In this document: piece by piece, positions 7,560 through 57,016 of the stretch
Layout of the letters: each line of letters opens with the position of its first letter
Numbering within the stretch: the stretch's first letter is position 1
Origin: Gemmatimonadales bacterium
Lineage (GTDB): Bacteria; Gemmatimonadota; Gemmatimonadetes; Gemmatimonadales; GWC2-71-9
NCBI GenBank assembly: GCA_019637315.1
Contig: JAHBVU010000003.1
Coordinates: 62,001 to 126,000 of the forward strand
Length of the DNA stretch: 64,000 nt
Direction of reading: 5' to 3'
Made by a program: the position numbers and the translations under genes
Notes under the pieces: generated by a model
Told to the model about the DNA's origin: nothing
Databases searched by the model: none
What the model saw: only the letters and a program-made list of their open reading frames with translations

Positions 7560-8453
7560 ATGACCAATCGATCCCGTATCGTGACGGTCGGACTCCCCCA
7601 AATGACGACGGTGGAGGATCCGACAGCCAATCTCCAAAAGGCGCTCGAACGCACCCGAGACGCGGCGCGGCAGGGCGCCCAGATCGTTTGTCTGCAGGAA
7701 CTCTTCATGGGCCCCTACTTCTGTCAGATGGAGGACCACCGGTTCTTCGCGCTGGCCGAAGCAATTCCGGGCCCGACCACCACCGCGTTCTCGACCCTGG
7801 CCAAGGAGCTGGGCATCGTGGTGGTTGCTTCGCTGTTTGAGAAGCGAGCCGAGGGACTCTATCACAACACCGCGGCCGTGATCGACGCCGACGGGACCTA
7901 TCTCGGTAAGTACCGGAAGATGCACATCCCGGACGACCCGCAGTACTACGAAAAGTTCTATTTCACACCGGGCGACCTCGGCTTCCGGACCTGGCAAACC
8001 CGATTCGGCAAGATCGGGGTGCTGATCTGCTGGGACCAGTGGTACCCCGAGGCTGCGCGGCTGACTGCCCTGTCTGGAGCGGAGATCATCTTCTATCCGA
8101 CCGCAATCGGCTGGTTGCCCCCGGAGAAGGCCGAGTACGGCGAACGCCAGCAAGCGGCCTGGGAGACGATCCAGCGGTCTCACGCGGTCGCCAATGGCGC
8201 GTATGTCGCGTCGGTCAACCGGGTCGGGCACGAAACCGGCGGCACGGCCGGGCCGGGGATCGAGTTCTGGGGCGGCAGCTTCGTAGCGGACCCCAACGGT
8301 CGGATCCTGGCCAAGGCAGGTACGGCAGAGGAGACCTTGATCGTCCCTTGCGACCTGAGCCAGGTCGACGTGGTCCGCACCCATTGGCCCTTCTTTCGCG
8401 ACCGCCGGATCGACGCCTACGGCGATCTCACCAAGCGATACATCGATTCATGA
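7560..8453 (+). CDS. aguB: N-carbamoylputrescine amidase
   Basis: A 297-residue nitrilase-superfamily enzyme converting N-carbamoylputrescine to putrescine, CO2 and ammonia. The catalytic triad is visible: Glu47 (LQELF), Lys120 (YRKMHIPDDP) and Cys157 (LICWDQWYPEAAR). Length and the GPYFCQ and YHNTAAVIDADG segments fit AguB. An upstream in-frame start at 7461 would add 33 residues with no family similarity, so the ATG at 7560 is preferred. TTAGAT lies 8 bases before that ATG, compatible with a very short or absent leader. The stop overlaps the start of agmatine deiminase (ATGA), giving a two-step agmatine-to-putrescine unit. Confidence 0.93.
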   Translation: MTNRSRIVTVGLPQMTTVEDPTANLQKALERTRDAARQGAQIVCLQELFMGPYFCQMEDHRFFALAEAIPGPTTTAFSTLAKELGIVVVASLFEKRAEGLYHNTAAVIDADGTYLGKYRKMHIPDDPQYYEKFYFTPGDLGFRTWQTRFGKIGVLICWDQWYPEAARLTALSGAEIIFYPTAIGWLPPEKAEYGERQQAAWETIQRSHAVANGAYVASVNRVGHETGGTAGPGIEFWGGSFVADPNGRILAKAGTAEETLIVPCDLSQVDVVRTHWPFFRDRRIDAYGDLTKRYIDS

Positions 8454-43951: not shown

Positions 43952-45241
43952 TCAGCCGCCTGCGGCGATCCGCTCGCTGGTCGGCAACGGGAAGCAACGC
44001 CACGGGCCATAGGGCGCGCCGATCTGATCGTTGCCGGTCTTCCAGGCAATGTTGAAGCGAATCAGGTCGTTGAACCGGTGTCCGCCCTCCATGAAGAACT
44101 CCCGGTTGCGCTCGCTGATGATGAGGGCCCGAATCGACGCCTCATCGACGCCGCCCGTGTAGGTCGGGAGCGAGAGCTGGGTACGGCGGGCATTGACGAT
44201 GTCGGCTGCCTGCTGCCCACCGAGCGCCTCCGCCCGAATCAGCTGGGCTTCGATGTAGCTCGCCAGCCGCATCGGCGCCGCACGTGAGAGGTTCTTGTTG
44301 TTGACCACGTACAGTGGGGTGACGCCGTCGAAGGCCGTCGGCAACATGCCAATGTCTGGACCGAACCGAACGTCGACGCGTGTATCCTTGACGCCACCGA
44401 CCTGCAGGTTGCGATAGGCCGGGTCTACGGAGCCATGACGCAGCTCCGTCAATCCCCAGTAGGCGTCATTGTAGCGCGAGGTCGCGTCCGCGCTGCGAGT
44501 GACGTTGAACTCGAATCCTGCCGTGACCGCCGCTGCGTCGGCGGCCGCACCTGCGTTATTGCCGAGCCTGATTCGGACTCGGGCGCGTCCGACCCGGGCA
44601 AGGTTCGCGAGTTCCGCACCTGCGGCTCCCGGCAGCGCGGTGGCCGCGGTGAGCGCCGCGTTGAACTTCGTCTCCGCGATTGCGAGGACTTGGGCCGGCG
44701 TCAGGATGCTGGTGCCCTGGTCGATACGCATGGCGCAGAATCCCTCGCCCAGCAACGTATAGCTGTACGCACCAAGAACCATGGTGCGGACCCGATGGGG
44801 CGCCAGATCGATACCGGCCTGTTCATTGGTCCAGCCGTTCAGACGTGCAAGGATGTCTTCCGACTGGAAGCGAGCCGTGTGCAGCGGGGTGTACGCTCCA
44901 AAGACGGTCGTACACGCGGCTCGCTCGTTGACGGGATCACCCTCCGGGATGTTCTTGGTACCCCACTGTTTTGCTGAGGCGTTGCCCGAAGCTCCGAGGT
45001 ACTCGTCGGAGAAGATGGAGGCCGACGCAACGTACTGACTGAAGGCGCACTCGAAGTCGGCTACGACGCTGGCTCCGAGCACCGCGGCGTTGCTGGCGTC
45101 GTCGAGCAACACCGTTGGGATACGGCCGGGCAGCTCCGCATCCAGGAGACTGTCACATCCCGCGGCGCCGAGCACGATCGCCATCATACCAGCCGTGGCG
45201 ATCAGACGACGGGTCCGGGATTTTCTGATCAGATTAGTCAT
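43952..45241 (-). CDS. SusD/RagB-family nutrient-binding outer-membrane lipoprotein (pair 1)
   Basis: A 429-residue lipoprotein (lipobox GAAGC at about residue 29). The C-terminal SusD signature is clear: RAEALGGQQAADIVNARRTQLSLP followed by IISERNREFFMEGGHRFNDLIRFN. SusD proteins sit on the cell surface and form the lid of the TonB-dependent SusC barrel, capturing glycans or peptides. The gene follows its susC partner by 17 bases. The ligand cannot be inferred from sequence. Confidence 0.92.
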   Translation of the reverse strand: MTNLIRKSRTRRLIATAGMMAIVLGAAGCDSLLDAELPGRIPTVLLDDASNAAVLGASVVADFECAFSQYVASASIFSDEYLGASGNASAKQWGTKNIPEGDPVNERAACTTVFGAYTPLHTARFQSEDILARLNGWTNEQAGIDLAPHRVRTMVLGAYSYTLLGEGFCAMRIDQGTSILTPAQVLAIAETKFNAALTAATALPGAAGAELANLARVGRARVRIRLGNNAGAAADAAAVTAGFEFNVTRSADATSRYNDAYWGLTELRHGSVDPAYRNLQVGGVKDTRVDVRFGPDIGMLPTAFDGVTPLYVVNNKNLSRAAPMRLASYIEAQLIRAEALGGQQAADIVNARRTQLSLPTYTGGVDEASIRALIISERNREFFMEGGHRFNDLIRFNIAWKTGNDQIGAPYGPWRCFPLPTSERIAAGG

Positions 45242-45258
45242 GATGCACATGTTCCTTT

Positions 45259-48200
45259 TCAGAACGAAAGCCGGACGGTGGCAAGGAAGCTGGTGTACTG
45301 CGGCCAGGACTCCTGATTGAAGGCGATGAACAGGTCACCCGTGTTCCGCTTCACCTCAGGATCGACCACTTTCCCGCCGAAGGTTCCCCGCTGCGCGCGC
45401 CAGAGCGTCGCCAGGTTGGAACCGGTCAGGGTCACCGAGCCGCCGGCAGCGCCGAGCAGCCCCGCTACACTCCGCGGCATGTCATAGGTCAGAGACACGT
45501 TGCGAAGCTTGCCGAAGCCGCCCTTCATCATCCCCGTGGCAAAGTTCTGCGACGCCAGCGGGCCGGTCTGGTAGGCCACCAGGATCGGGTCCGTCCGCTG
45601 GGCACCGGCGAGCGAGTTGAAGAAGAAGATGTGTGAAGCCGCGAGATTGCCGTCCAGGTACATCTGACCGCTCTGGAACTCGGCAATACCCACCAGCCGG
45701 AACCGACGCCACTGGACATCCGCGCTGATCGAGGACAGCAAGGTCGGCGTCGACGGGCCCCAGTACAGGTTGGGCGCCGTGGCACACGGAACTGCCGAGC
45801 CGTCGCCGTTGCCGAAATTGGTGCCGCCCTCGCACAACACGTTGATGGCCTGACCGGCAGCGTTCAACTCGGCCGAGATCGGCTTCTTGTAGAACTGCCC
45901 ACCGATCGGGAAGCCGGACACATGATAGGTCCCGAGCTGGGCATTCTGCACCAGCGGCACCGCCTGGCCCAGGTCATCGATCTTGTTGGTATTCTTGGCG
46001 ATCGAGCCGCGCAGGTTGAGCTTGAATTCCCGTCCATTGATGAGCGAACCGTCAACGGCAACCTCGACGCCCTTGTTGCTGAACTGACCGACATTGATGA
46101 ACTGGTTACCCGGGAAGCCGCCGGACGGCGACACCGGCGCAGACAGAATGCCGTCCGTCGTCACCTTGTTGTAGTAGGTGAACTCGAGGCTCATCCGATC
46201 GCTGAGCAAGCTGGCGTCGAATCCGGCCTCGATCTCGCGGCTGACTTCCGGCTTGAGATCCGGATTGCCGACGTTGAGCGGCGTCACCGTCGGATTGCCG
46301 CCGGCGCCGACCGACGGGCCGTAGGTCTGTACCGCTGCAAACACGTCCGGCTGCTGCCCGGCCTTGCCCCAGGCGCCGCGCAGCTTGAGGGTGGACAGGA
46401 ACGACGAGTTCGCGAAGAACGGCTCTTCCGAGATCACCCAGGACAGGCTGACCTTGGGATAAACCACGAAGTCGAAGTTGGTACCGAAGGAGCTGTTGTC
46501 GTCACCGCGAACCGCGCCCGTGATGAACAAGCGGTTTTTCCAGGAGAGCTGCTCCTGGACGTAGACGCCGAGCGTCTTGTTCTCGAAGTTGAACTGCGGG
46601 TTCTCAAACCCTTCACGGACGCCGCCGCCACTGACGGTGTTGACGCCGACGACAGGGAAATTCTGACCGTTGGCCTGAATCTGCTCGTATCGCTTGGTGT
46701 AGTACTGCACACCTGCCGAGGTCTGAGTGACGAGGTTGGCACCGACGGATACCGTGGCGTTGGCCGAGTAGTCGGCCGTAATGAAAGCGCTGCGGTCGAG
46801 CCGTTCCTGCTTGATACCGCCCGGCTGACCGAACTTGGCGCTGCCGCGCGGGAAATAGACGGACGACGGGTTGTTGGTGAAATCGCCGCCGATGACCAGC
46901 CGATGGTTGAGCCAGCTGACCGGACGATGGTTGAGCGTGAGGCCCATGCGGCTACGGTCGACTTCGTCGTATCCCTCGAGCGGGTCGAAGTCTTCCGGAA
47001 GCACACCGGCCAGCCATGCCCGACCAGGCTCATTCGGAGCCAGGCCCGATCCAGCGCGGCACGAGTTGCTCGGGCAGCCCCAGACGAGGTAGGTCGTCAC
47101 CGGCTGAGTCGCCGAAGCCGAGCGAACCTTGGAGCGGGTAAAGCCGATGTTCAGGTCGGCTTTGAAGGTTTCGCCTGATGAGTAGCTCAGGTTGCCGACA
47201 CCGTTGAGCTTGTTCATCCAGTTGTAGCTGACGATGCCCTCGTTGCGATCATACGACCCGCTGAAGAAGTACCGGACGGCGTCTGAGCCGCCGGAAACTG
47301 ACATCGTCCCGCCCAGGGCCTGGCCCGTCGAAAACGGGCTGCCGAAACCACGGGCTATGTCGTTCTCGATCAGGTTGACGTACTGGATCTGATTCGCCGC
47401 ATCCCGATACCAGACTCCCTCGTAGACCTTCTCGGGACTCGGCAGCCAGTTGGCGCCGCCACGACCCTCGACGCTCCACGCGGCGCGGCCGGACGAGCCA
47501 CGCTTGGTGATGATCTGGATCACGCCGTTGGAGGCTTCCGTACCATAGAGCGTGGCTGCCGACGGCCCCTTGAGCACCTGGATCGACTCGATGTCGTTCG
47601 GGTCGATATCGTTGATTCGGGTCGGCTTGTCCGCGCCCCAGAACCCGAGGCTGGTCGATCCCGACCGGTTGTCGGCCCGAACGCCATCGATGAAGATGAT
47701 CGGTTCCGAAGCCAAGCTGAGCGAGCCGACGCCCCGGATTCGCGTGGCGGCGCCGGTTCCGAGCTGGCCGCTGGCACGCTGAATCTGCAGACCGGGGATC
47801 GCCACCGACAGCGCCTCCTGAATCCGCTGGGTCGGCGCGGCCAACTGCGTTGCCGCGAGGTCCAGCTGGCCGACCGCGTTGCCGAGCGACCGCTTCTGGG
47901 TTTCGGCGGCCGCGCCGGTCACGACGACCTCGTCGAGTCGGAGCGCCGTCTCGACCAGTGCCAGCGCGACGTCGGTCGCGCCGACCCGAACCGTTTGGGT
48001 CAGCGGCTGGTACCCGATTCGAGTTACCGTCACTTCGACACTGGCCCCGGAAAGACCGGACAGCGTGAAGCGACCGGCGGCGTTGGTCCGAGCCGAACCA
48101 CTCGCCGCGCGAACCAGCGCTTCAGCGAGTGGTCGTCCCGACTTTGCATCCGTCACCGTTCCTGAAACAGCATTGGACTGCGCCGTGAGTGCAGCAGGCT

Positions 48201-48288
48201 GCCAGGAAACAAGCGCAACCAACGCCGCACCGAGCATCATCCGCCGCGGCAACCCGCGACACGACGCTCCAAACGAGCTGAAGAGCAT
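45259..48288 (-). CDS. SusC/RagA-family TonB-dependent transporter (pair 1)
   Basis: A 1009-residue outer-membrane transporter. After a signal peptide (ending near LTAQ) comes a carboxypeptidase-D-regulatory-like domain (SGTVTDAKSGRPLAEALVRAAS, residues about 40-120). Next are a TonB-box-like segment (LDEVVVTGAA), the plug with SusC signatures (RIRGVGSLSLASEPIIFIDGVRAD, IESIQVLKGPSAATLYGTEASNGVIQIITKRG) and a 22-strand barrel ending FLATVRLSF. GGAGGG lies 8 bases before the ATG at 48288. It works with the SusD partner and the TonB-Exb system. Confidence 0.95.
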   Translation of the reverse strand: MLFSSFGASCRGLPRRMMLGAALVALVSWQPAALTAQSNAVSGTVTDAKSGRPLAEALVRAASGSARTNAAGRFTLSGLSGASVEVTVTRIGYQPLTQTVRVGATDVALALVETALRLDEVVVTGAAAETQKRSLGNAVGQLDLAATQLAAPTQRIQEALSVAIPGLQIQRASGQLGTGAATRIRGVGSLSLASEPIIFIDGVRADNRSGSTSLGFWGADKPTRINDIDPNDIESIQVLKGPSAATLYGTEASNGVIQIITKRGSSGRAAWSVEGRGGANWLPSPEKVYEGVWYRDAANQIQYVNLIENDIARGFGSPFSTGQALGGTMSVSGGSDAVRYFFSGSYDRNEGIVSYNWMNKLNGVGNLSYSSGETFKADLNIGFTRSKVRSASATQPVTTYLVWGCPSNSCRAGSGLAPNEPGRAWLAGVLPEDFDPLEGYDEVDRSRMGLTLNHRPVSWLNHRLVIGGDFTNNPSSVYFPRGSAKFGQPGGIKQERLDRSAFITADYSANATVSVGANLVTQTSAGVQYYTKRYEQIQANGQNFPVVGVNTVSGGGVREGFENPQFNFENKTLGVYVQEQLSWKNRLFITGAVRGDDNSSFGTNFDFVVYPKVSLSWVISEEPFFANSSFLSTLKLRGAWGKAGQQPDVFAAVQTYGPSVGAGGNPTVTPLNVGNPDLKPEVSREIEAGFDASLLSDRMSLEFTYYNKVTTDGILSAPVSPSGGFPGNQFINVGQFSNKGVEVAVDGSLINGREFKLNLRGSIAKNTNKIDDLGQAVPLVQNAQLGTYHVSGFPIGGQFYKKPISAELNAAGQAINVLCEGGTNFGNGDGSAVPCATAPNLYWGPSTPTLLSSISADVQWRRFRLVGIAEFQSGQMYLDGNLAASHIFFFNSLAGAQRTDPILVAYQTGPLASQNFATGMMKGGFGKLRNVSLTYDMPRSVAGLLGAAGGSVTLTGSNLATLWRAQRGTFGGKVVDPEVKRNTGDLFIAFNQESWPQYTSFLATVRLSF

Positions 48289-48834
48289 GAGCACCACCCT
48301 CCCGAATTGTGACGAACTGAAACGACCGCTGGATCAACTTGCTGAGACTGCCACTGCCTCCACCACACACAACACCGCAATCCGTCCGCTGGCCATCAGT
48401 CCAAGTACACGGTGGGTACCATACCCTGGACTGGACCATCCGCTTGCGATGCCGGAGTCCGATTCAAAAGCGATACTGAAACTGAAAACCTGTTCCTGGC
48501 CCGCTGAGTTCTCAAGCTCGAAAGGTTCGGCCGTCGCCGGGGGGTCCTTCCGAGAATCGATCGATCATGCCAACAGCATGCAAACGATCGGTGACTTCAC
48601 TTTGAGCAGGAGTCGATGCTGAGAGGTTGCATCGTCTGCATACAATCTTGTGCACATAGTGCTTTCAGGCAAGAGGGTCGCTGGCGTGTCCATTCGACTT
48701 TCGCCGCTGGCGAACAACCCCTGGTACGTCCACAACCACATGCCGTCAGATCGCAGGCACCGCGCCGAGGAAATGCTGCATGCGACACGACCCCCGGGCA
48801 GGCAAAACGCACCCCGGGGGCCCGATTTGACGAG
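48289..48834. other. Intergenic region upstream of the first SusC gene
   Basis: About 546 bases with no convincing gene; short open frames lack family features. The left part should carry the susC promoter and leader. The right end contains the amidohydrolase-unit terminator hairpin. An A/T-richer patch around 48625-48660 (TTGCATCGTCTGCATACAAT) is the best place to look for a promoter, but I could not align a -35/-10 pair with correct spacing on the minus strand. Confidence 0.45.
48791..48820 (-). terminator. Hairpin after the amidohydrolase pair
   Basis: CCCCCGGG and CCCGGGGG (48791-48798 and 48813-48820) around a 14-base loop, 14 bases beyond the last amidohydrolase stop on the minus strand. 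No U-tract is obvious. Confidence 0.5.
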
Positions 48835-50112
48835 CTACGGCTTCTCGTAAACGAGTTCGCCCCCAACATAGGCTTTGCGAACCCACGTCATCACACTGAG
48901 CGGCGGCCCATCGAGCAGGATAACATCAGCGTCCTTGCCGGCCTCGAGCGAGCCGACCCGATCGGCTACACCAAGGACCTCCGCTGGCGTGAGCGTCACA
49001 CCGCGCAGCACCTGGGCCTCCGTGAGACCGTACCCGACCGCGATGCCGGCATCCATGAGCAACCACTTGCCGGTACCGGCCGGCGCCAGCGTCCCGAAGG
49101 CACGTGAGAAGGTGCCGAACGCCGTCGTGACACCCGCGGCGGTCAGCTTGGCAGCGAGCGCCTCGTCCGGCTCCGGGTAGTCCGTCTTGTCCGGAATCTC
49201 CTCATTGCTGACATACGGATGGGAGACCTGACCGAGCACCACCGGCACCTTGCGCGCCGCGAGCTCGGTCTTGACATCGAGCGCACCCGCCCCGCCGTCG
49301 ATGACGACATCGATGCCAAACTCGTCCGCCAGCCGCAGCGCCGCACGAATGTCCGTCGGACTGTTGGCCTGGATTCGGGCCGGGATCTCCTTCCGGAGTA
49401 ACCGACCCAGCGCTTCGAGACCGAGATCCTTGGGCAACGCGGGATTCCCCTCCTTGTTCCGCTGATACTCCTGGGCGCGCACCAGGATCTGCCGAATCAT
49501 GGCGACTTGCGACATCCGGGTATACGGCGCCCGGTTCCGGGCCCGCGCCACCGTCTTGGGCGGCGTCCCGAGCGTCATGTCCATGGCCGCGGGCTCGCGC
49601 ACGAGCAGGTCGCTGTGCAGCGCGGCAGCCGTCTTGACGACGGCTCCCTGCCCGCCAATGACCTGCGCATCGGCCGGTGCGATATACATGGTCGTCACAC
49701 CACCCGAGAGCGCCTCCCGGTTCCTGAGCGGCTGCCGCTGCCCGGCCCCGAAGGTGCCGAAGGGATTGTATCCCTCCCAGGCCCGATTCTGCGGCGTCAT
49801 GGGGTCGCCCATCTCGTTGAGATCGCCGCCGTCGAAACCAAGATTCGACATGGCGTCCACCAGCCCGGGCAGCACGTACTGACCCTTGGCATCGACGATC
49901 TGCGCACCGGACGGCACCGCGACATTCGCACCGACCGCCACGATCTTGCCGCGGTGTATCACCACCGTTCCATTCGGGATACTCGGACCGCTCACCGGCA
50001 CGACGGTGCCGCCACGGATTGCAATCGGTCGTTCCTGTCCGTCGACTGACCCGGCAATCAGTGCGGTCGCAACGAGCGCGCCGCCCAGTACCTTCGCTGT
50101 GAAGGCGGTCAT
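48835..50112 (-). CDS. Amidohydrolase-fold paralogue lacking metal ligands
   Basis: A 425-residue exported protein (signal ending near VDGQ) with the composite beta-sandwich and barrel of the amidohydrolase superfamily (RGGTVVPVSGPSIPNGTVVIHRGKIVAVG; LTPAEVLGVADRVGSLEAGKDADVILLDG). The first metal motif, HxH in active relatives, reads VDAMSNLG here (Met88, Asn90). Other ligand positions are also changed: SHVHSATD of the paralogue is IQANSPTD, and LTLHHST is VVIDGGA. It therefore looks catalytically inactive or strongly altered. It lies 2 bases after an intact paralogue, so the two may form a hetero-oligomer. Confidence 0.88.
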   Translation of the reverse strand: MTAFTAKVLGGALVATALIAGSVDGQERPIAIRGGTVVPVSGPSIPNGTVVIHRGKIVAVGANVAVPSGAQIVDAKGQYVLPGLVDAMSNLGFDGGDLNEMGDPMTPQNRAWEGYNPFGTFGAGQRQPLRNREALSGGVTTMYIAPADAQVIGGQGAVVKTAAALHSDLLVREPAAMDMTLGTPPKTVARARNRAPYTRMSQVAMIRQILVRAQEYQRNKEGNPALPKDLGLEALGRLLRKEIPARIQANSPTDIRAALRLADEFGIDVVIDGGAGALDVKTELAARKVPVVLGQVSHPYVSNEEIPDKTDYPEPDEALAAKLTAAGVTTAFGTFSRAFGTLAPAGTGKWLLMDAGIAVGYGLTEAQVLRGVTLTPAEVLGVADRVGSLEAGKDADVILLDGPPLSVMTWVRKAYVGGELVYEKP

Positions 50113-50114
50113 GG

Positions 50115-51326
50115 TTACTTGCCCTCCGTGCTGCGGTCGTAAATGACCCGACCGTCGCCGACGACGAGATCGACCCGCGATGCCGGCTCGTACCAGGGTC
50201 CGTTCATGATTACCAAGTCGGCATCCTTGCCGACCTCGAGGCTGCCGACCCGATCGCCGACCCGAGCAATCTCGGCCGCGTTGAGGGTCACCATCTTGAG
50301 GGCTTCATCTTCCGGAACACCGTACCGCATCACGATTGCCGCGCAGAGTCGCAGCCACTTCTGATTGATGACCGGGGCATCGGTGTGCATGGCCACCTTG
50401 ACCCCCGCCTTCCAGAGATCGTAGATCCCGGCCAGCGCGTCGTCAGTCACGCCGATCCGCGGACCGAGCGGCAGCACGACGGCTGAAACATTCCGCTTGG
50501 CCAACTCAGGGGCCAGCTTGTACGCCTCGGTGGAATGGTGGAGCGTCAAGTCGAAGCCGAACTCGTCCTTGAGACGGAGAATGGTGGCAACATCGGTGGC
50601 CGAGTGGACATGCGACCGGACATATGTGGTCCGGTCGAGCACCAGTCCCATGCCCTCATACGCCAGATCTCGGGCGGGAGGATTGCCCTTGCGCCCTTCG
50701 TCGACCCACTTCTTCTGTCCTGCCAGGTACTCCTGGGTTCTGATCAGGTACTGCCGAAGATTGGCCGCGACCCCCATGCCTGTTCCGGGGTATCGGTCCC
50801 GACCCTTGGGGCCCATCGCGAACTTCATCCCGCCCTTTTCGAGCAGCATCCGCTTGGTCAGATCCTCGCCAAACGTTTTGATGACGACCGCCATGCCACT
50901 GACGTTCTCACCGCTGCCCGGCCCCGTCACAATCGTGGTGACCCCGCCCGACACCGCGTTGGCGAACTCCGGATCGGTCCAGTCGAGCACGTCGAGAAAG
51001 CGGTGCTGCGGTCCGATCAGAACCGGCGTATCGTTCAGATCAGAGACCTTAGCGCCAATGTGCGAATGATTGTCGATCATACCCGGCACGACCACCTTGC
51101 CGGACGCATCGATGATTCGCGCCCCGCTCGGCGCGGACACGTTGGTGCCGATCGCCACGATCTTGCCGTCGCGAATCAGCACGCTGCCATTCCGAATCGG
51201 GGCGCCGGCAGCCGTGTGAACCGTACCGCCGCGGACCAGAATCGTACCGCCCGCCTGCGCGGATGCCGGCACCGACGCCAGCGCGTGAACAGCCAGTCCC
51301 AGGACCAGCCAGCGAAATCGTCCCAT
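50115..51326 (-). CDS. Exported metal-dependent amidohydrolase
   Basis: A 403-residue amidohydrolase with signal peptide ending near ASAQ. Metal motifs are intact: IDNHSHIG (His87, His89), RSHVHSATD, LTLHHSTEAY and the barrel-end Asp in AMHTDAPV. It resembles imidazolonepropionase- and dipeptidase-like members that hydrolyse cyclic amides or small peptides. Two adjacent ATGs exist; 51326 has AAGGG at 7 bases and is chosen. The gene lies between an M20 peptidase and a ligand-less paralogue, within a block flanked by two SusC/SusD pairs, suggesting breakdown of an imported peptide or amide. Confidence 0.9.
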   Translation of the reverse strand: MGRFRWLVLGLAVHALASVPASAQAGGTILVRGGTVHTAAGAPIRNGSVLIRDGKIVAIGTNVSAPSGARIIDASGKVVVPGMIDNHSHIGAKVSDLNDTPVLIGPQHRFLDVLDWTDPEFANAVSGGVTTIVTGPGSGENVSGMAVVIKTFGEDLTKRMLLEKGGMKFAMGPKGRDRYPGTGMGVAANLRQYLIRTQEYLAGQKKWVDEGRKGNPPARDLAYEGMGLVLDRTTYVRSHVHSATDVATILRLKDEFGFDLTLHHSTEAYKLAPELAKRNVSAVVLPLGPRIGVTDDALAGIYDLWKAGVKVAMHTDAPVINQKWLRLCAAIVMRYGVPEDEALKMVTLNAAEIARVGDRVGSLEVGKDADLVIMNGPWYEPASRVDLVVGDGRVIYDRSTEGK

Positions 51327-51395
51327 CATCTCACCCTTGACCATGCTGTGTGCACTCTGCCTTCCTGTCAGTTGCCCCGCCTGTGCCTCGACGCC

Positions 51396-52547
51396 TCAAC
51401 GGCAGTAGTCGACCGCCGTTGCCGCGAGGATCTCCGCCGTTCGATAGACCGACTCGAGATCGACCCACTCCTCGGCCGCATGAGCGCCATGCCCGGTCGG
51501 CCCGAAGATCACGGTGTCGACTCCGGCGGCAGCCAGCAGCGCCGAGTCCATCCACGGCGTGTCTCCAACTACGACTGGGGGGGCGCCGAGGATTCCGGCA
51601 GCTGCCCGCGACACGGCCTGCGCCACGGCCCCGTCGGCTGCGGCCTCGAAGGCATCGCGAGCAAAGAAGCAATTGACGTCGGCCGCGAAGCTCGGGTCGT
51701 CCGCCTTGAGTTCGTCGATCAAACTGGTAATCTCGGCCAGCGCAGAGCCTTCTGATTCGCCTGGCACGGTACGCCGCTCGATCTCGACCCGCGCCGACGC
51801 GGCGTAGGTGCTGAGGCCGGTCCCGCCCCGAAGGGTGGCGGCATGGAGTGACGGCGGCCCGACCAGCGGATGGGGCGGCCGGCTCCGCAACTCCGCCTCG
51901 AGCCGAGCCAGCTTGCCGAGGAAGCGACCCATCCGGAGGTTGGCGTCGATGCCCTCCTCGAACCGGCTGCCGTGCGCCGCACGACCATGAACCTCGACGG
52001 CGATCCAGAGGTAGCCCTTGTGCGCCACACACAGGCGCAGCGCGGTCGGCTCGGTCACGACGGCACCGTCCACCCGGATCCTCTTTGCCAGGTCCGCAGT
52101 GCCGCAACTGCCATACTCTTCATCGGCGACCGCCGCCACGACGACATCACCCCGGAGCGGGGTGCCACTATCCTTGAGCGCCTTGGCCGCGGTCATGCAG
52201 GCAGCCACTGCTCCCTTCATATCGAATGCCCCGCGGCCGAACAGTCTGCCGCCGTCGACCCGGGCACTGAACGGCTCGGCCATCTCGGCCACGTCGACCG
52301 TATCGATGTGGCCGTTGAGCATCAGGTGCTTGCCGCCGCCCGATCCGGCCAGCCTGCCGGTCACACTGACCCGCCCGGGTACAGGTTCGTGCAACTCGAC
52401 CTGAAGGCCCACGTCGCGCAATCGGCCCGCAACGTACGCAGCAATCGGCCCTTCACCGACCGCTCCCGGAACCAGATTAGGATTGATAGAGTCGATCCGC
52501 ACCAGATCGCGGAGCGTTTCGAGACACCAAGATCGATCGATCTGCAT
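51396..52547 (-). CDS. M20-family metallopeptidase / deacylase (ArgE/DapE type)
   Basis: A 383-residue dizinc enzyme of the M20 family. LMLNGHIDTVDV has the first zinc His and its Asp, GRGAFDMKGAVAA the bridging Asp, VADEEYGS the catalytic Glu pair, and GPTGHGAHAAEEWV the final ligand His. AAHGSR is the lid-domain signature. No signal peptide, so cytoplasmic. The ATG at 52547 is chosen because AGGA lies 7 bases before it, while the GTG at 52553 would have no space for a ribosome site. It would cleave N-acyl amino acids or dipeptides taken up by the adjacent SusC/SusD systems. Confidence 0.9.
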   Translation of the reverse strand: MQIDRSWCLETLRDLVRIDSINPNLVPGAVGEGPIAAYVAGRLRDVGLQVELHEPVPGRVSVTGRLAGSGGGKHLMLNGHIDTVDVAEMAEPFSARVDGGRLFGRGAFDMKGAVAACMTAAKALKDSGTPLRGDVVVAAVADEEYGSCGTADLAKRIRVDGAVVTEPTALRLCVAHKGYLWIAVEVHGRAAHGSRFEEGIDANLRMGRFLGKLARLEAELRSRPPHPLVGPPSLHAATLRGGTGLSTYAASARVEIERRTVPGESEGSALAEITSLIDELKADDPSFAADVNCFFARDAFEAAADGAVAQAVSRAAAGILGAPPVVVGDTPWMDSALLAAAGVDTVIFGPTGHGAHAAEEWVDLESVYRTAEILAATAVDYCR

Positions 52548-52573
52548 CTTCACGTCCTGAAAAGAGCACGGGA

Positions 52574-52595
52574 GCGGCGACTGAACCGTCGCCGC
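52574..52595 (-). terminator. Terminator-like hairpin after the second SusC/SusD pair
   Basis: GCGGCGAC, 6-base loop, GTCGCCGC, 23 bases beyond the SusD stop; on the minus strand it is followed a few bases later by CTCTTTTC. Readthrough into the M20 gene is possible because only about 25 bases separate it from that start. Confidence 0.55.
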
Positions 52596-52618
52596 CCCCG
52601 AGTCCGAACCTCAGGTGA

Positions 52619-53953
52619 TCAGGCCTGGTTGACCAGGCAGGAAGCCGCGCTGTAGTTCGGATTGTTCTCTTCCGTCTGCGGCACGATCAGCGTGGCCTGG
52701 GTCCCGCGAGTCAGGCCCTGCTTGTGGTACGCACCGGTCGGATAGACCGACTCGATGGACCGGCCGTACTGACGCACCAGACGACGGAGGTCGCCGAGAC
52801 GGTGCGCGGTCAGATAGAACCAGAAACCGCGCTCGCGGAATGTCATGTTGATCCGGGCGGCTTCGGTGCCTGGATCCGTGAGCGGCGCAAGGCCGGCAAC
52901 GGTGGCACGCGCATCGTTCAACTTCTGGAGCCACGTGGTCGGGTTGCCTGCCCGAAGCGCGGCTTCGGCCTCGATCAACCGCGCCTCGACGCCAGTCACC
53001 ATGGCCACCGGCGAACCGATGGTCGGATACTTCGTCGTGACGACCATCGGCGTGACGCCGTCGTTGCGGGACGGCCCGGTCGACGTCACCGGCACCCGCG
53101 GATCATTGGCGCTGGCGAAGTCGAGCCCGTTGGTACCCTCGCGGTCCGGCACTGAATAGACGTCGTTCACGATGTTCTGCTGAACCTGATTGGTCTGCCG
53201 AGCGGGCGGCGCACCGTGAATGAACTCATACGAAAAGCTGGTCGGAACGCTGGCAACCGCCGCCGCGGCTGCGGCGGGCTGATTGAGATTGAGCAGCGCC
53301 CGGCCGCGCAGCACGGCCGTCAGATTCTGGACCCGGGCATTTCCGCCAGCGTTGGCCGCAGCCGACGTCAGGTGCGTGATGCTGCGGTTGAAGATCTCGG
53401 TCGTTGTCAGCGGGTTGCTCAGTTCGAGCGGGTCCCGGGTCGAGATCGGCGTACCTGAGCACCACAACTCACCGAGCATGATGTAGCTCAGGCCAGCCAG
53501 CGCGTACAGTTCCCCGGTGCGCGGGTCGTTCGCGGGCAGCGCGGCGGCCCCCTTCTCGAGCGCACTTCGCGCCCGTTGCAATCCCAGAAACGGGCCGCCC
53601 TGCGGCGCTGCGGCCGTGCCGACCTGTACCACCACGCTGTTGGTGTTGAGCACGCCACGAAGATCCCACTCCCGAACCGCCGGGGGTGTGCTCGCGTGCA
53701 TCAACTCGTCAGTGAAGAGGCCGGAGAAAATCACAACACCGCTCGCCCCAGTCGTTGCTACGACCAGATCCGAGACTGCACCAGCGTAGACCGCGGCCAG
53801 GCCTTCTGGCGTCGTGAGCCGGTCCGGCGTGATCACGTCCGGAGTGTCCGGCTGCAAGATATCGTCCTTCGAGCAGCCGGTTGCCCCAACGGCGAGCACC
53901 ATGGCGCAAGCCGTTGCGTGGTACCACCCGGCTGACTTTCTGATTCTCAACAT
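52619..53953 (-). CDS. SusD/RagB-family lipoprotein (pair 2)
   Basis: A 444-residue lipoprotein (lipobox GATGC, Cys27). TPR-like helices (LQRARSALEKGAAALPANDPRTGELYALAGLSYIMLGELWC) and the terminal RLIEAEAALRAGNPTTWLQKLNDARATVAG and NMTFRERGFWFYLTAHRLGDLRRLVRQYGR segments identify a SusD-like surface binder. It follows its susC partner by 30 bases. It shares only family-level similarity with the SusD of pair 1, so the two pairs probably take up different ligands. Confidence 0.92.
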   Translation of the reverse strand: MLRIRKSAGWYHATACAMVLAVGATGCSKDDILQPDTPDVITPDRLTTPEGLAAVYAGAVSDLVVATTGASGVVIFSGLFTDELMHASTPPAVREWDLRGVLNTNSVVVQVGTAAAPQGGPFLGLQRARSALEKGAAALPANDPRTGELYALAGLSYIMLGELWCSGTPISTRDPLELSNPLTTTEIFNRSITHLTSAAANAGGNARVQNLTAVLRGRALLNLNQPAAAAAAVASVPTSFSYEFIHGAPPARQTNQVQQNIVNDVYSVPDREGTNGLDFASANDPRVPVTSTGPSRNDGVTPMVVTTKYPTIGSPVAMVTGVEARLIEAEAALRAGNPTTWLQKLNDARATVAGLAPLTDPGTEAARINMTFRERGFWFYLTAHRLGDLRRLVRQYGRSIESVYPTGAYHKQGLTRGTQATLIVPQTEENNPNYSAASCLVNQA

Positions 53954-53983
53954 ATGTATGGTTTCCTTATGAGCCGGTGTCGG

Positions 53984-56900
53984 TCAGAACGTCAGGTTGA
54001 CGCGCAGGATGCCGATGAGCGGCTGCGCCTGGGCGGAGAAGTTGTAATTGGCCGCATCGTTCGACTGCGTCACGTTCTCCGGATCCCAGCTGGTGAATCC
54101 GTACTTCTTGAGCCAGAGGTTGCGGCCCGTCAGCGTCACGTTGGCCGTCTTGGCGCCGATGGTGCGAGCCAGCGTGTTGGAAACGGTGTAGGTGACCGAC
54201 GCCTCGCGGAGCCGGATGTGCTCGGCGTTCTGGGCGTAGGCGCCGAAGGCACGGGCGCCAGCCACAGCTGCAGCCTGCTCGGCCAGCGTGGCGTTCGGAT
54301 CGTGCAGCTCGCGGCAGTTCACCTGGAAGGCGCACTGGAACAGACCGTTGACGTTGTGGCTGACAAAGCCGCCGCGGTAGTCGAGCTGCGCACCAATGCG
54401 CAGCCGGTTATTGAACAGCGCCACGCTGGTGTTGGCGGAAAGCGTCCGGGTCGGAACGGTCGAACCGTGGAACGTATCCGGACCGATGACGACCTCGGTC
54501 GGGTCAATGGCGCCGTCGTTGTTAGCGTCGCTCCAGCTCTCGAGTGAAGGCCACCAGAGACCAAACATCGGATACCCCGGCGTGTTCTTGAAGCCGAAGC
54601 CCGCGATCGGCGGAACGCCGTCGGCAAGTTCCACCAGCCGATTCTTGTTGCCGGCCGCCTCGAGCTGGAGATCCCAGGCAACGCTGCGCGAGTCGATCAA
54701 ACGGGTGTTGACGGATACCTCGAGGCCCTTGTTGCTCACGATACCGACGTTCTCGAGCCGGACACCCACGTCGCCGAAGGAGAACGGCTGCGTGCGCAAC
54801 ACCATCGCGTCCGTGGTCTTCTTGTCGTAGAACGTGATCTCGAGGTTGAGGCGGCTGTCGAGCAAGCCGATATCGACACCCGTTTCGATTTCCCGTGAGC
54901 GCTCCGGCTTGAGAGCCGGATCGCCCAGGCCGCCCAGCGTGACGCCAGGCAGCGATGCCGCGCCAAAGATGCTGGCGGCAATCGGGCTCTGGTAGGTCAG
55001 GGCGTCGAGCGGACGCGGTGACTGGCCCGTCGCGCCGTAGGCGCCGCGGAAACGGACGCTGTTCAGGAATCCGCTGAGGCCCTCAAGAGCAACGAACGAC
55101 GCGGAGACCTTGGGATAGGCCGCCGAACGGAACTCCGCGCCGAAGGCGCTGTTCTCGTCGACTCGCAGCGCACCGGTCAGAAAGAGACGGTCGTTCAGAC
55201 CGAACTGCTGCTCGACGTAGGTTCCCAGCGTGATGACATCGTTGGTAGCCTCGGTCAGAGTCTTCTGCGCGCCGGCAGACAGCGAGATGATGCCGGGCGG
55301 CAGGATGTCGGCCTGCGCCAGCACGCCAAAGAGCTTATCGCGGTTGAACTGCGCGCCAACCGACGTCTTCGAGGCGATGCTGTTGGTCAGACGGAACTGG
55401 GCCGTCGCGTTCAGGTCGAGTGTGTAGCGGGTATCGATGTAGCGGTTGAACATCCGCTTGCCCTGGTTCTCAGTACCGCAAGTGAGACAGCCCTGTCCAT
55501 TCAGGACGTTCTGCTCATCGACGTAGTTGAGGTAGTCGATGCCGAAGGTGCCCCGGGTCGAGAGCCAGGAGAGCGGCCGCCAGTTGACGGTCGCGGAGTT
55601 GATGAAGTGGTCGTTCTTCCGATACGACACTTCGCCGATCGAGTAGGCCGGGCGCGAGAACCCGTACCCGCCGGTGTTGGCAACGATGGCCGGGTTCGCG
55701 GAACCGAACAGCGCCGAGCCGATCATCGACTGGAAGTTGTCGCCGGTCTGGGGCAACCGGATGTTGTTGATGATCACACCGGACGAGAGCGAGACATCGA
55801 GATTGCTGCGAGGGCTCGCGTTCAAGTTGATCCGGAAGCTGTGCTTGTCGAAGGCGTTGGGGCGAAGCTGTTCGTTCGGAATATCGCTCCGGCTCGACAA
55901 CTTACGAAGATTGACCACAAAGTCCTGCTCCACACCACCGAGCTTGAGTACGCCGGTTTCGCTTTCCCGCTCGGCCGAGACAAAGTAGCGCACTGCCTCG
56001 GACCCGCCGGATACGCTGGCACCCATCTGGTAGCGAGAGCCGGTTCCGAACGGCGTCGTCGCCGGGTCGTTGAGCAGGTCGAGCTCATGACGCTGCGCGA
56101 CTGTGCAGAGGCCCTGCCGCTCCTGCCAGGTCAGGCAGTTGGCATTCGGGTTCGAGGCCGAGGCGTTGAAATAGACCTTGGGATAGGTATAGGTATCCTT
56201 CATGGCCCCGCCCTCGATCCAGGCGTTCCACTGCGGCGCCCCCGCGCGACCACGCTTGGTCGTGACACGAATCACGCCATTGGCGGCCTGAGTGCCGTAC
56301 AACGTGGCCGCCGACGGGCCCTTCACGATCTCGATGCTCTCGATTTCTTCGGGATTGAGATCGTTGAGCTTGGACACCGTGGTGCCGCCGACGAAGGAAC
56401 CGGCCGGCGCGTCGGCCGCGACCCGGATTCCGTCGATGTACAGCAGCGGATCGTTGGACAACGACACCGAGCTCAAACCGCGCACCCGGATACGGGCACC
56501 TGCGCCGCTGGTGCCGCTGCTCTGCAGCACGTTGACACCCGCGACGCGACCGCTCAGCACCTGAGACAGGTTCGTCGTCGGCGCCGTCTCGACCAGCTGG
56601 GCTGTTTGAATCTTGGAAACCGAGTTCCCGAGTTCGCGCGACTGCTGATCACCCGTGGCCGTGGTGACGATGTCTTCGAGCTGGAACGGAACGGCACGAA
56701 GGCCCCAGTCGAGGGTCTGCGCGTCGCCGCTGATCGTGACCGACCGAGTCTGTGAGGCATAGCCGACCAGGAAGACGCGCAAGGTGTGCGCACCAGCCGT
56801 CAGGCCGCGCAAGGTGTACTGACCCTGCTGGTTCGTGATAGCGAAGACCTGCTGGGTCGTCGCCTGGATCCGGGCACCAGACAGGGGCTGTCCGGTTGCC

Positions 56901-57016
56901 TCATCCGTTACCGTACCCGTAACGGATGACTGCTGCGCGAGGGCCGCGGATGGACCGGCGGCTCCTGCAAGCAGCAGCAAGAAGGTGCGGACCCATGAAC
57001 GGACGGGAGCGCGCAT
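53984..57016 (-). CDS. SusC/RagA-family TonB-dependent transporter (pair 2)
   Basis: A 1010-residue outer-membrane transporter with signal peptide ending near ALAQQ. Then come a carboxypeptidase-regulatory-like domain (VTGTVTDEATGQPLSGARIQATT), a TonB-box region (LEDIVTTATG), the plug signatures RVRGLSSVSLSNDPLLYIDGIRV and IESIEIVKGPSAATLYGTQAANGVIRVTTKRG, and a barrel ending ILRVNLTF. It forms a gated uptake complex with the SusD gene 30 bases downstream. Its upstream region is the divergent intergenic space shared with the kynurenine plus-strand genes. Confidence 0.95.
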   Translation of the reverse strand: MRAPVRSWVRTFLLLLAGAAGPSAALAQQSSVTGTVTDEATGQPLSGARIQATTQQVFAITNQQGQYTLRGLTAGAHTLRVFLVGYASQTRSVTISGDAQTLDWGLRAVPFQLEDIVTTATGDQQSRELGNSVSKIQTAQLVETAPTTNLSQVLSGRVAGVNVLQSSGTSGAGARIRVRGLSSVSLSNDPLLYIDGIRVAADAPAGSFVGGTTVSKLNDLNPEEIESIEIVKGPSAATLYGTQAANGVIRVTTKRGRAGAPQWNAWIEGGAMKDTYTYPKVYFNASASNPNANCLTWQERQGLCTVAQRHELDLLNDPATTPFGTGSRYQMGASVSGGSEAVRYFVSAERESETGVLKLGGVEQDFVVNLRKLSSRSDIPNEQLRPNAFDKHSFRINLNASPRSNLDVSLSSGVIINNIRLPQTGDNFQSMIGSALFGSANPAIVANTGGYGFSRPAYSIGEVSYRKNDHFINSATVNWRPLSWLSTRGTFGIDYLNYVDEQNVLNGQGCLTCGTENQGKRMFNRYIDTRYTLDLNATAQFRLTNSIASKTSVGAQFNRDKLFGVLAQADILPPGIISLSAGAQKTLTEATNDVITLGTYVEQQFGLNDRLFLTGALRVDENSAFGAEFRSAAYPKVSASFVALEGLSGFLNSVRFRGAYGATGQSPRPLDALTYQSPIAASIFGAASLPGVTLGGLGDPALKPERSREIETGVDIGLLDSRLNLEITFYDKKTTDAMVLRTQPFSFGDVGVRLENVGIVSNKGLEVSVNTRLIDSRSVAWDLQLEAAGNKNRLVELADGVPPIAGFGFKNTPGYPMFGLWWPSLESWSDANNDGAIDPTEVVIGPDTFHGSTVPTRTLSANTSVALFNNRLRIGAQLDYRGGFVSHNVNGLFQCAFQVNCRELHDPNATLAEQAAAVAGARAFGAYAQNAEHIRLREASVTYTVSNTLARTIGAKTANVTLTGRNLWLKKYGFTSWDPENVTQSNDAANYNFSAQAQPLIGILRVNLTF

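Follow-up and report, generated by a model that had tools for sequence, protein, structure and literature searches.

The closest solved relative of the gene pair described here is PDB 3ooq of Thermotoga maritima, the product of a gene that we take to be TM0814. It is the best match, in sequence and in fold, of both P0002, the active-type member of the pair, and P0001, its ligand-less neighbour, and its HxH, His, His and Asp align with the metal ligands of P0002. Unlike the pair, 3ooq comes from one gene and shows every ligand in the alignment, and we know of no ligand-less partner for it; literature searches for 3ooq together with amidohydrolase, or for TM0814, found no paper. Among the dihydropyrimidinase-related proteins (CRMP/DPYSL), which have the amidohydrolase fold and appear as distant matches of P0002 and P0001, catalysis has been lost. 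These are, however, animal and cytosolic proteins, with no operon or fusion pairing with an active bacterial paralogue. In P. aeruginosa, ATCase depends on a dead pseudo-dihydroorotase of the amidohydrolase fold for both its activity and its stability, according to the published account (PMC7053772). The likeness to our pair lies in the use of a dead amidohydrolase-fold chain as partner; in that complex the active partner is an unrelated transcarbamoylase, whereas the active and dead chains studied here are paralogues. The enzyme-pseudoenzyme principle is already known, and here it would apply to a paralogous bacterial envelope pair; our literature search, which covered openly accessible journal papers, found no paper on this active-dead pair. 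Our main reading, to which we give a probability of roughly 0.6, is that P0002 and P0001 are the catalytic and non-catalytic subunits of one exported hydrolase, in which the dead subunit would play a structural or allosteric part.

The pair is located in a window of 64,000 nucleotides, the whole stretch of DNA that was analysed, and the features of the locus are given in Table 1. The preliminary description of this DNA had proposed tandem amidohydrolases, one of them seemingly dead and the two genes 2 bases apart, and both points were confirmed from the sequence: two minus-strand open reading frames encode proteins that are 35% identical across 434 columns (BLASTP, E 1e-63). The probable true start of P0002 is an in-frame ATG at 51326, inside its open reading frame, and a GGAGGG ribosome-binding-like site for P0001 is found at 50122-50127, within the 3' end of the P0002 gene. 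The reported loss of HxH was also correct as quoted (VDAMSNLG in P0001, IDNHSHIG in P0002), and the claim that at least two other ligand positions were missing turned out to be an understatement, since all five are gone. P0002 carries H93, H95, H245, H270 and D322, and the residues at these places in P0001 are M88, N90, Q248, G273 and F335, with both numberings derived from alignment anchors.

Table 1. Features of the P0002/P0001 locus and of the neighbouring genes, with positions counted in the window.
Feature	Position	Strand	Evidence and remarks
SusD-like protein, downstream	43952..45250	-	PF07980, E 7.4e-06
SusC-like TonB-dependent receptor, downstream	45259..48297	-	PF00593 and PF07715
P0001, ligand-less paralogue (predicted pseudoenzyme)	48835..50112	-	425 aa; open reading frame and translation, 0/5 ligands, 3ooq match, AlphaFold
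Signal-peptide-like N-terminus of P0001	50038..50112	-	By eye; 11-residue hydropathy 2.18
Junction: P0002 stop (50115-50117), 2 bases, P0001 start	50113..50127	-	Direct sequence reading
P0002, active-type amidohydrolase (3ooq-type)	50115..51344	-	409 aa, all five metal ligands; open reading frame and translation, 3ooq match
Signal-peptide-like N-terminus of P0002	51252..51329	-	By eye; 11-residue hydropathy 2.31
M20-family amidase/deacylase (ArgE/DapE type), next gene upstream, same strand	51396..52553	-	PF01546, E 6.5e-33; TIGR01910 above cut-off
SusD-like lipoprotein	52619..53953	-	PF07980, E 0.0013, weak, below Pfam cut-off
SusC-like TonB-dependent receptor, upstream	53984..57016	-	PF00593 and PF07715

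In sequence searches P0002 matches 3ooq at E 2e-60 (residues 35-404) and P0001 matches it over its full length at E 5e-60; 3ooq is by far the best solved match of both, the next entries being at 6e-12 and 3e-11. P0002 is also above the cut-off for PF01979 and PF07969 and, to judge from its sequence, is a 3ooq-type member of the amidohydrolase superfamily, a TIM barrel flanked by a beta-sandwich, and a predicted hydrolase. The view that P0001 has kept its length and fold was upheld by this homology and by its AlphaFold model (pLDDT 87, pTM 0.89), which gives TM-scores of 0.86/0.89 to 3ooq. Since P0001 has the fold with none of the five ligands, we class it as a pseudoenzyme of the 3ooq-type family and not as an amidohydrolase enzyme. 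Its hydrophobic N-terminal core reads as the signal peptide that had been suggested, and the N-terminus of P0002 likewise reads as one.

A search of the same genome with P0001 returned six full-length matches, which form three adjacent pairs: P0002 with P0001, C5:187485-189976 and C2:148979-151386. All three have the same order, a gene with the ligands upstream and one without them downstream. Between the three pairs, which are old paralogues, identity in either role is about 31-36%. In the class of this genome (Gemmatimonadota), P0001 found matches in 122 of 149 genomes. From the 30 loci returned and further hand-chosen stretches, with duplicates removed, we obtained 77 non-redundant class loci, which are not a random sample, and all 77 contain exactly one domain with five of five ligands (the last Asp in 77/77) followed downstream by a ligand-less domain. 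Sixty-one loci consist of these two domains alone, and 16 have an additional dead domain upstream, which in several cases shares one chain of about 1000 residues with the active domain. The downstream dead domains keep none of the ligands (70) or one (7), the upstream ones none (10) or two (6), and no class domain is intermediate between these counts and five.

To cover other phyla, a scan of 84,980 species genomes was made with an alignment of active domains, and the best 80 of 340 relatives were taken as named loci; the scan patterns include the HxH motif, so that sampling is by the active gene. Among these best 80 of 340, a dead domain is found downstream in 43, downstream only in 26 and both upstream and downstream in 17. 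The 43 paired loci belong to Pseudomonadota (13), Planctomycetota (8), Bacteroidota (7), Acidobacteriota (5), Gemmatimonadota (3), Myxococcota (3), Balneolota, Fidelibacterota and Verrucomicrobiota, with one more in an Aminicenantes record without an NCBI phylum; the paired loci in this sample of the best 80 are from diderm phyla. The assignment of the class to Gemmatimonadota is based on the named Gemmatimonadota loci, whose active domains share 75-89% identity with class loci. Lone active genes number 35 among the same best 80 of 340 (26 in Bacillota, 7 in Archaea and one each in Actinomycetota and Lentisphaerota), which indicates that the fold does not always require a partner. By a simple hydropathy measure, a hydrophobic N-terminus is mostly present in paired and mostly absent in lone genes, with exceptions such as L112, L157, L178 and L189. 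Two odd arrangements were also seen: in L125 (candidate division WOR-3) the dead domain is upstream only, in a row of three genes of which one is nearly ligand-less and two are active, and L163 (Truepera, match at 7955) is a lone, half-degraded member, one gene that retains HxH and the third His but has neither the last His nor the Asp.

The two copies also occur together at the level of whole genomes. In the Algoriphagus class, 62 of 80 genomes have an active-profile match and the same 62 have a dead-profile match; the other 18, which lack the active gene, gave no dead-profile match at 1e-40. By hand count, 57 of the 62 have a dead-profile match at E 1e-80 or better, which we counted as the downstream type of dead copy, the best scores of active genes against the dead profile being only about 1e-75. 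In G190 a diverged dead gene adjoins the active one (9e-68), and in G197, G198 and G221 the active gene is present with no downstream-type dead copy among the matches listed, the active gene of G198 being at a contig edge. Thirty loci of this class were analysed (L197 and L220-L248): 29 have an upstream or fused dead domain, L220 starting at a contig edge, and the downstream dead domain is within reach in 22 and one gene away in one more. In six of the remaining seven genomes, the dead-profile search found a ligand-less copy that is intact but unlinked, either at a distance of 20 kb or on a different contig, and in the seventh, G219, it found a broken one. The retention of the dead copy without linkage argues for a functional tie to the active gene. 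In the Bowmanella class, active and dead copies are both present in the same 8 of 143 genomes. In contrast, the Holdemania class has the active gene in 14 of 80 genomes, and its first 14 loci returned (L258-L271) are 13 lone actives and one that is split across two frames.

Analysis of substitutions in 21 species pairs of L054-L060 (Nei-Gojobori) gave dN/dS values of 0.103-0.192 for the active and 0.112-0.220 for the dead copy, and no internal stops were found in 11 window-type pairs. Within the window subfamily, purifying selection acts on the dead copy as strongly as on the active copy. The preliminary description had held that decay among homologues would speak against its proposal, and what we found in the window subfamily is low dN/dS and no internal stops. 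Over the 77 class loci the dead copy is the faster-changing one, with a median identity of 0.36 against 0.42 for the active copy. The identity patterns of the two copies agree (r 0.90, with the same nearest locus in 45 of 77 and a nearest locus within the top three in 67 of 77), as expected from co-inheritance, although species kinship alone could give the same agreement.

These data bear on our null explanation, in which the dead copy is a recent tandem duplicate in decay. The loss of all ligands and one broken dead copy, in G219, would agree with it, but the loss and the gene order are identical in 77 of 77 class loci and recur in diderm phyla, dN/dS is as low as that of the active copy, and dead and active genes co-occur in the Algoriphagus class. 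We rejected decay on these grounds, and its probability is now close to nil. The broken copy is the downstream-type dead gene of L300 (G219:C1:3814522-3815705), which is in two frames next to intact active and upstream dead domains.

What the dead copy does was approached through the conservation of its parts. For a hand-defined set of pocket columns around the ligands, the mean entropy is 1.25 bits in active domains and 2.26 bits in the 53 downstream dead domains, close to the 2.35 bits of the rest of the barrel in the latter, and the beta-sandwich stays tight (1.66 bits in active against 1.86 in dead domains). A variable pocket with a conserved sandwich is more in keeping with a structural or allosteric role than with binding. 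On the other hand, the dead copies of the window subfamily, at about 53% identity, share long invariant stretches (SHPY.S.EE.PD and FSR.FG), loops that could line a binding site. Such loops, like the SusCD-like genes that flank the pair, are what would be expected if the dead copy were a periplasmic substrate-binding or sensing protein whose barrel acts as a ligand cage and passes substrate to P0002 or to SusCD. We consider this unlikely, since the dead pocket is as variable as the barrel around it while the active pocket is tight, the flanking genes vary between phyla, and fusions and unlinked co-retention point to the active enzyme and not to a transporter. The ligand positions themselves bear on another alternative, that the dead copy has lost the metal site and gained metal-free chemistry as a different enzyme. 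At the beta-6 ligand position, Gly replaces His in 47 of the 53 dead domains downstream and in 19 of the 20 upstream. This could be taken as a shared signature of such an enzyme, but letters scatter at the other four positions and no conserved polar residue takes the place of the ligands, which makes this alternative highly improbable.

Coupling of the two genes is tight, and some loci carry them as fusions. In the class, 73 of 75 junctions are within 20 nt (median -4), as are 29 of 38 in the named loci; the start codon was taken as close to the stop as possible, which biases these lengths towards small values. Single-frame fusions of an active with a downstream dead domain are present in the named loci L118 and L166 (Planctomycetota), L145, twice (Aminicenantes), and L167 and L189 (Myxococcota; the start of L189 is cut off), and in the class loci L099 and L108. 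We modelled the natural fusion L118 with AlphaFold, and the model, which spans 840 residues of which about 40 form a disordered linker, has pLDDT 85 and pTM 0.85. The input consisted of six fusions and 17 single dead rows, so that the first half is 6 rows deep and the second 23. This alignment of fusions and dead rows (A5) replaced a mixed one (A4), which was dropped for folding after its single dead rows landed on the active half. In our judgement unrelated domains on a loose linker should score much lower, so that definite packing of the halves is predicted for L118, although pTM alone does not say which surfaces meet. Tight operon spacing would suffice for co-inheritance, and the two proteins might have only operon position and a pathway in common, without ever touching each other. 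This is argued against by the single-chain fusions, by the recurrence of the arrangement in genomes where the genes are unlinked, by the homology of both chains to one oligomeric fold (3ooq, a ten-chain crystal) and by the pTM of the fusion, and we regard it as quite improbable.

Under the subunit reading, P0002 and P0001 would both be secreted and would form a heteromer descended from a homo-oligomer of the lone cytosolic 3ooq type. P0001 would stabilise or order the active subunit through conserved surfaces of the fold, and its old pocket would bind neither metal nor substrate. The preliminary description had suggested a pseudoenzyme partner that shapes or regulates the active subunit, or binds substrate. 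Retention of the partner is strongly supported by the 77 of 77 class loci, purifying selection, the fusions and the unlinked co-occurrence, and shaping or regulating the active subunit fits best; substrate binding is less favoured, the dead pocket being no more conserved than the barrel.

Both SusC/SusD-like gene pairs of the window (43952-57016) enclose P0002, P0001 and the M20 amidase. A neighbour scan, made with 20 + 4 hand-chosen proteins near pairs, found a divergent S58 peptidase by the C5 pair (L061), an M28 peptidase in Algoriphagus and a POT transporter in Kordiimonas, as well as histidine kinases, Tex, AdoMet synthetase and others near further pairs, the flanks varying between phyla. 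The neighbour genes give only a hint of an amide or peptide substrate for P0002. The substrate would probably be an amide or peptide of small size that enters by way of the adjoining SusCD-like system, and the M20 amidase would belong to the same pathway; this is the weak step of the proposed mechanism.

One tree was built from 171 domains, taken from the named loci and from 11 class loci. Its lone, active and dead groups separate with the fewest possible changes, and the 73 dead domains of named and reference loci are on one side of a branch with support 93. In the tree of class loci the actives form one clan (support 97). When the ligand columns and two neighbours were removed, the dead domains needed one extra change, which is forced by no starred branch; this tree omits the long rows (the upstream domains of L166 and L179) and the odd loci L125, L145, L147 and L163. 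A single origin of the dead lineage is likely, not proven, from these sequence trees. With the root assumed, the most economical history that the sequences suggest leads from a lone cytosolic enzyme to export, duplication, metal loss in one copy and then a second dead copy upstream.

More broadly, and with somewhat less than even confidence, we propose that diderm bacteria widely possess an exported hydrolase that is obligately heteromeric, with one live subunit joined by one or two dead paralogues. Its dead lineage would have arisen at roughly the time of the enzyme's move out of the cytoplasm into the envelope and been kept in at least nine phyla, and the second dead copy upstream would have led to dead-live-dead trimers; a substantial share of such 'amidohydrolase' annotations would then be non-catalytic. 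If the proposal is true, a bacterial envelope enzyme has retained a dead paralogue for a very long time across many phyla, and many genes annotated as 3ooq-type amidohydrolases code for no enzyme. It raises the testable question of why a homo-oligomeric enzyme surrenders half of its active sites, and does so repeatedly. The natural single-chain versions suit structure work, and the lone relatives provide a built-in comparison.

We also found dead-active pairs in reversed order. Holdemania (G157) has three tandem pairs, L280-L282, in which the dead gene precedes the active one; none of them shows a clear export signal. An independent origin of these pairs is favoured in two trees, with supports of 96 (a tree that omits the long rows of the L166 and L179 upstream domains) and 89; another tree places all dead rows together (88), a grouping that was not rejected (p-AU 0.153). 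From these trees, the reversed dead-live pair of Holdemania may be its own independent invention. L270 (G402:C53:27957-28874) is a split Bacilli-type active gene with an internal TGA, and in L283 (Neobacillus, G156) an active gene is immediately preceded by a divergent one that lacks most of the ligands.
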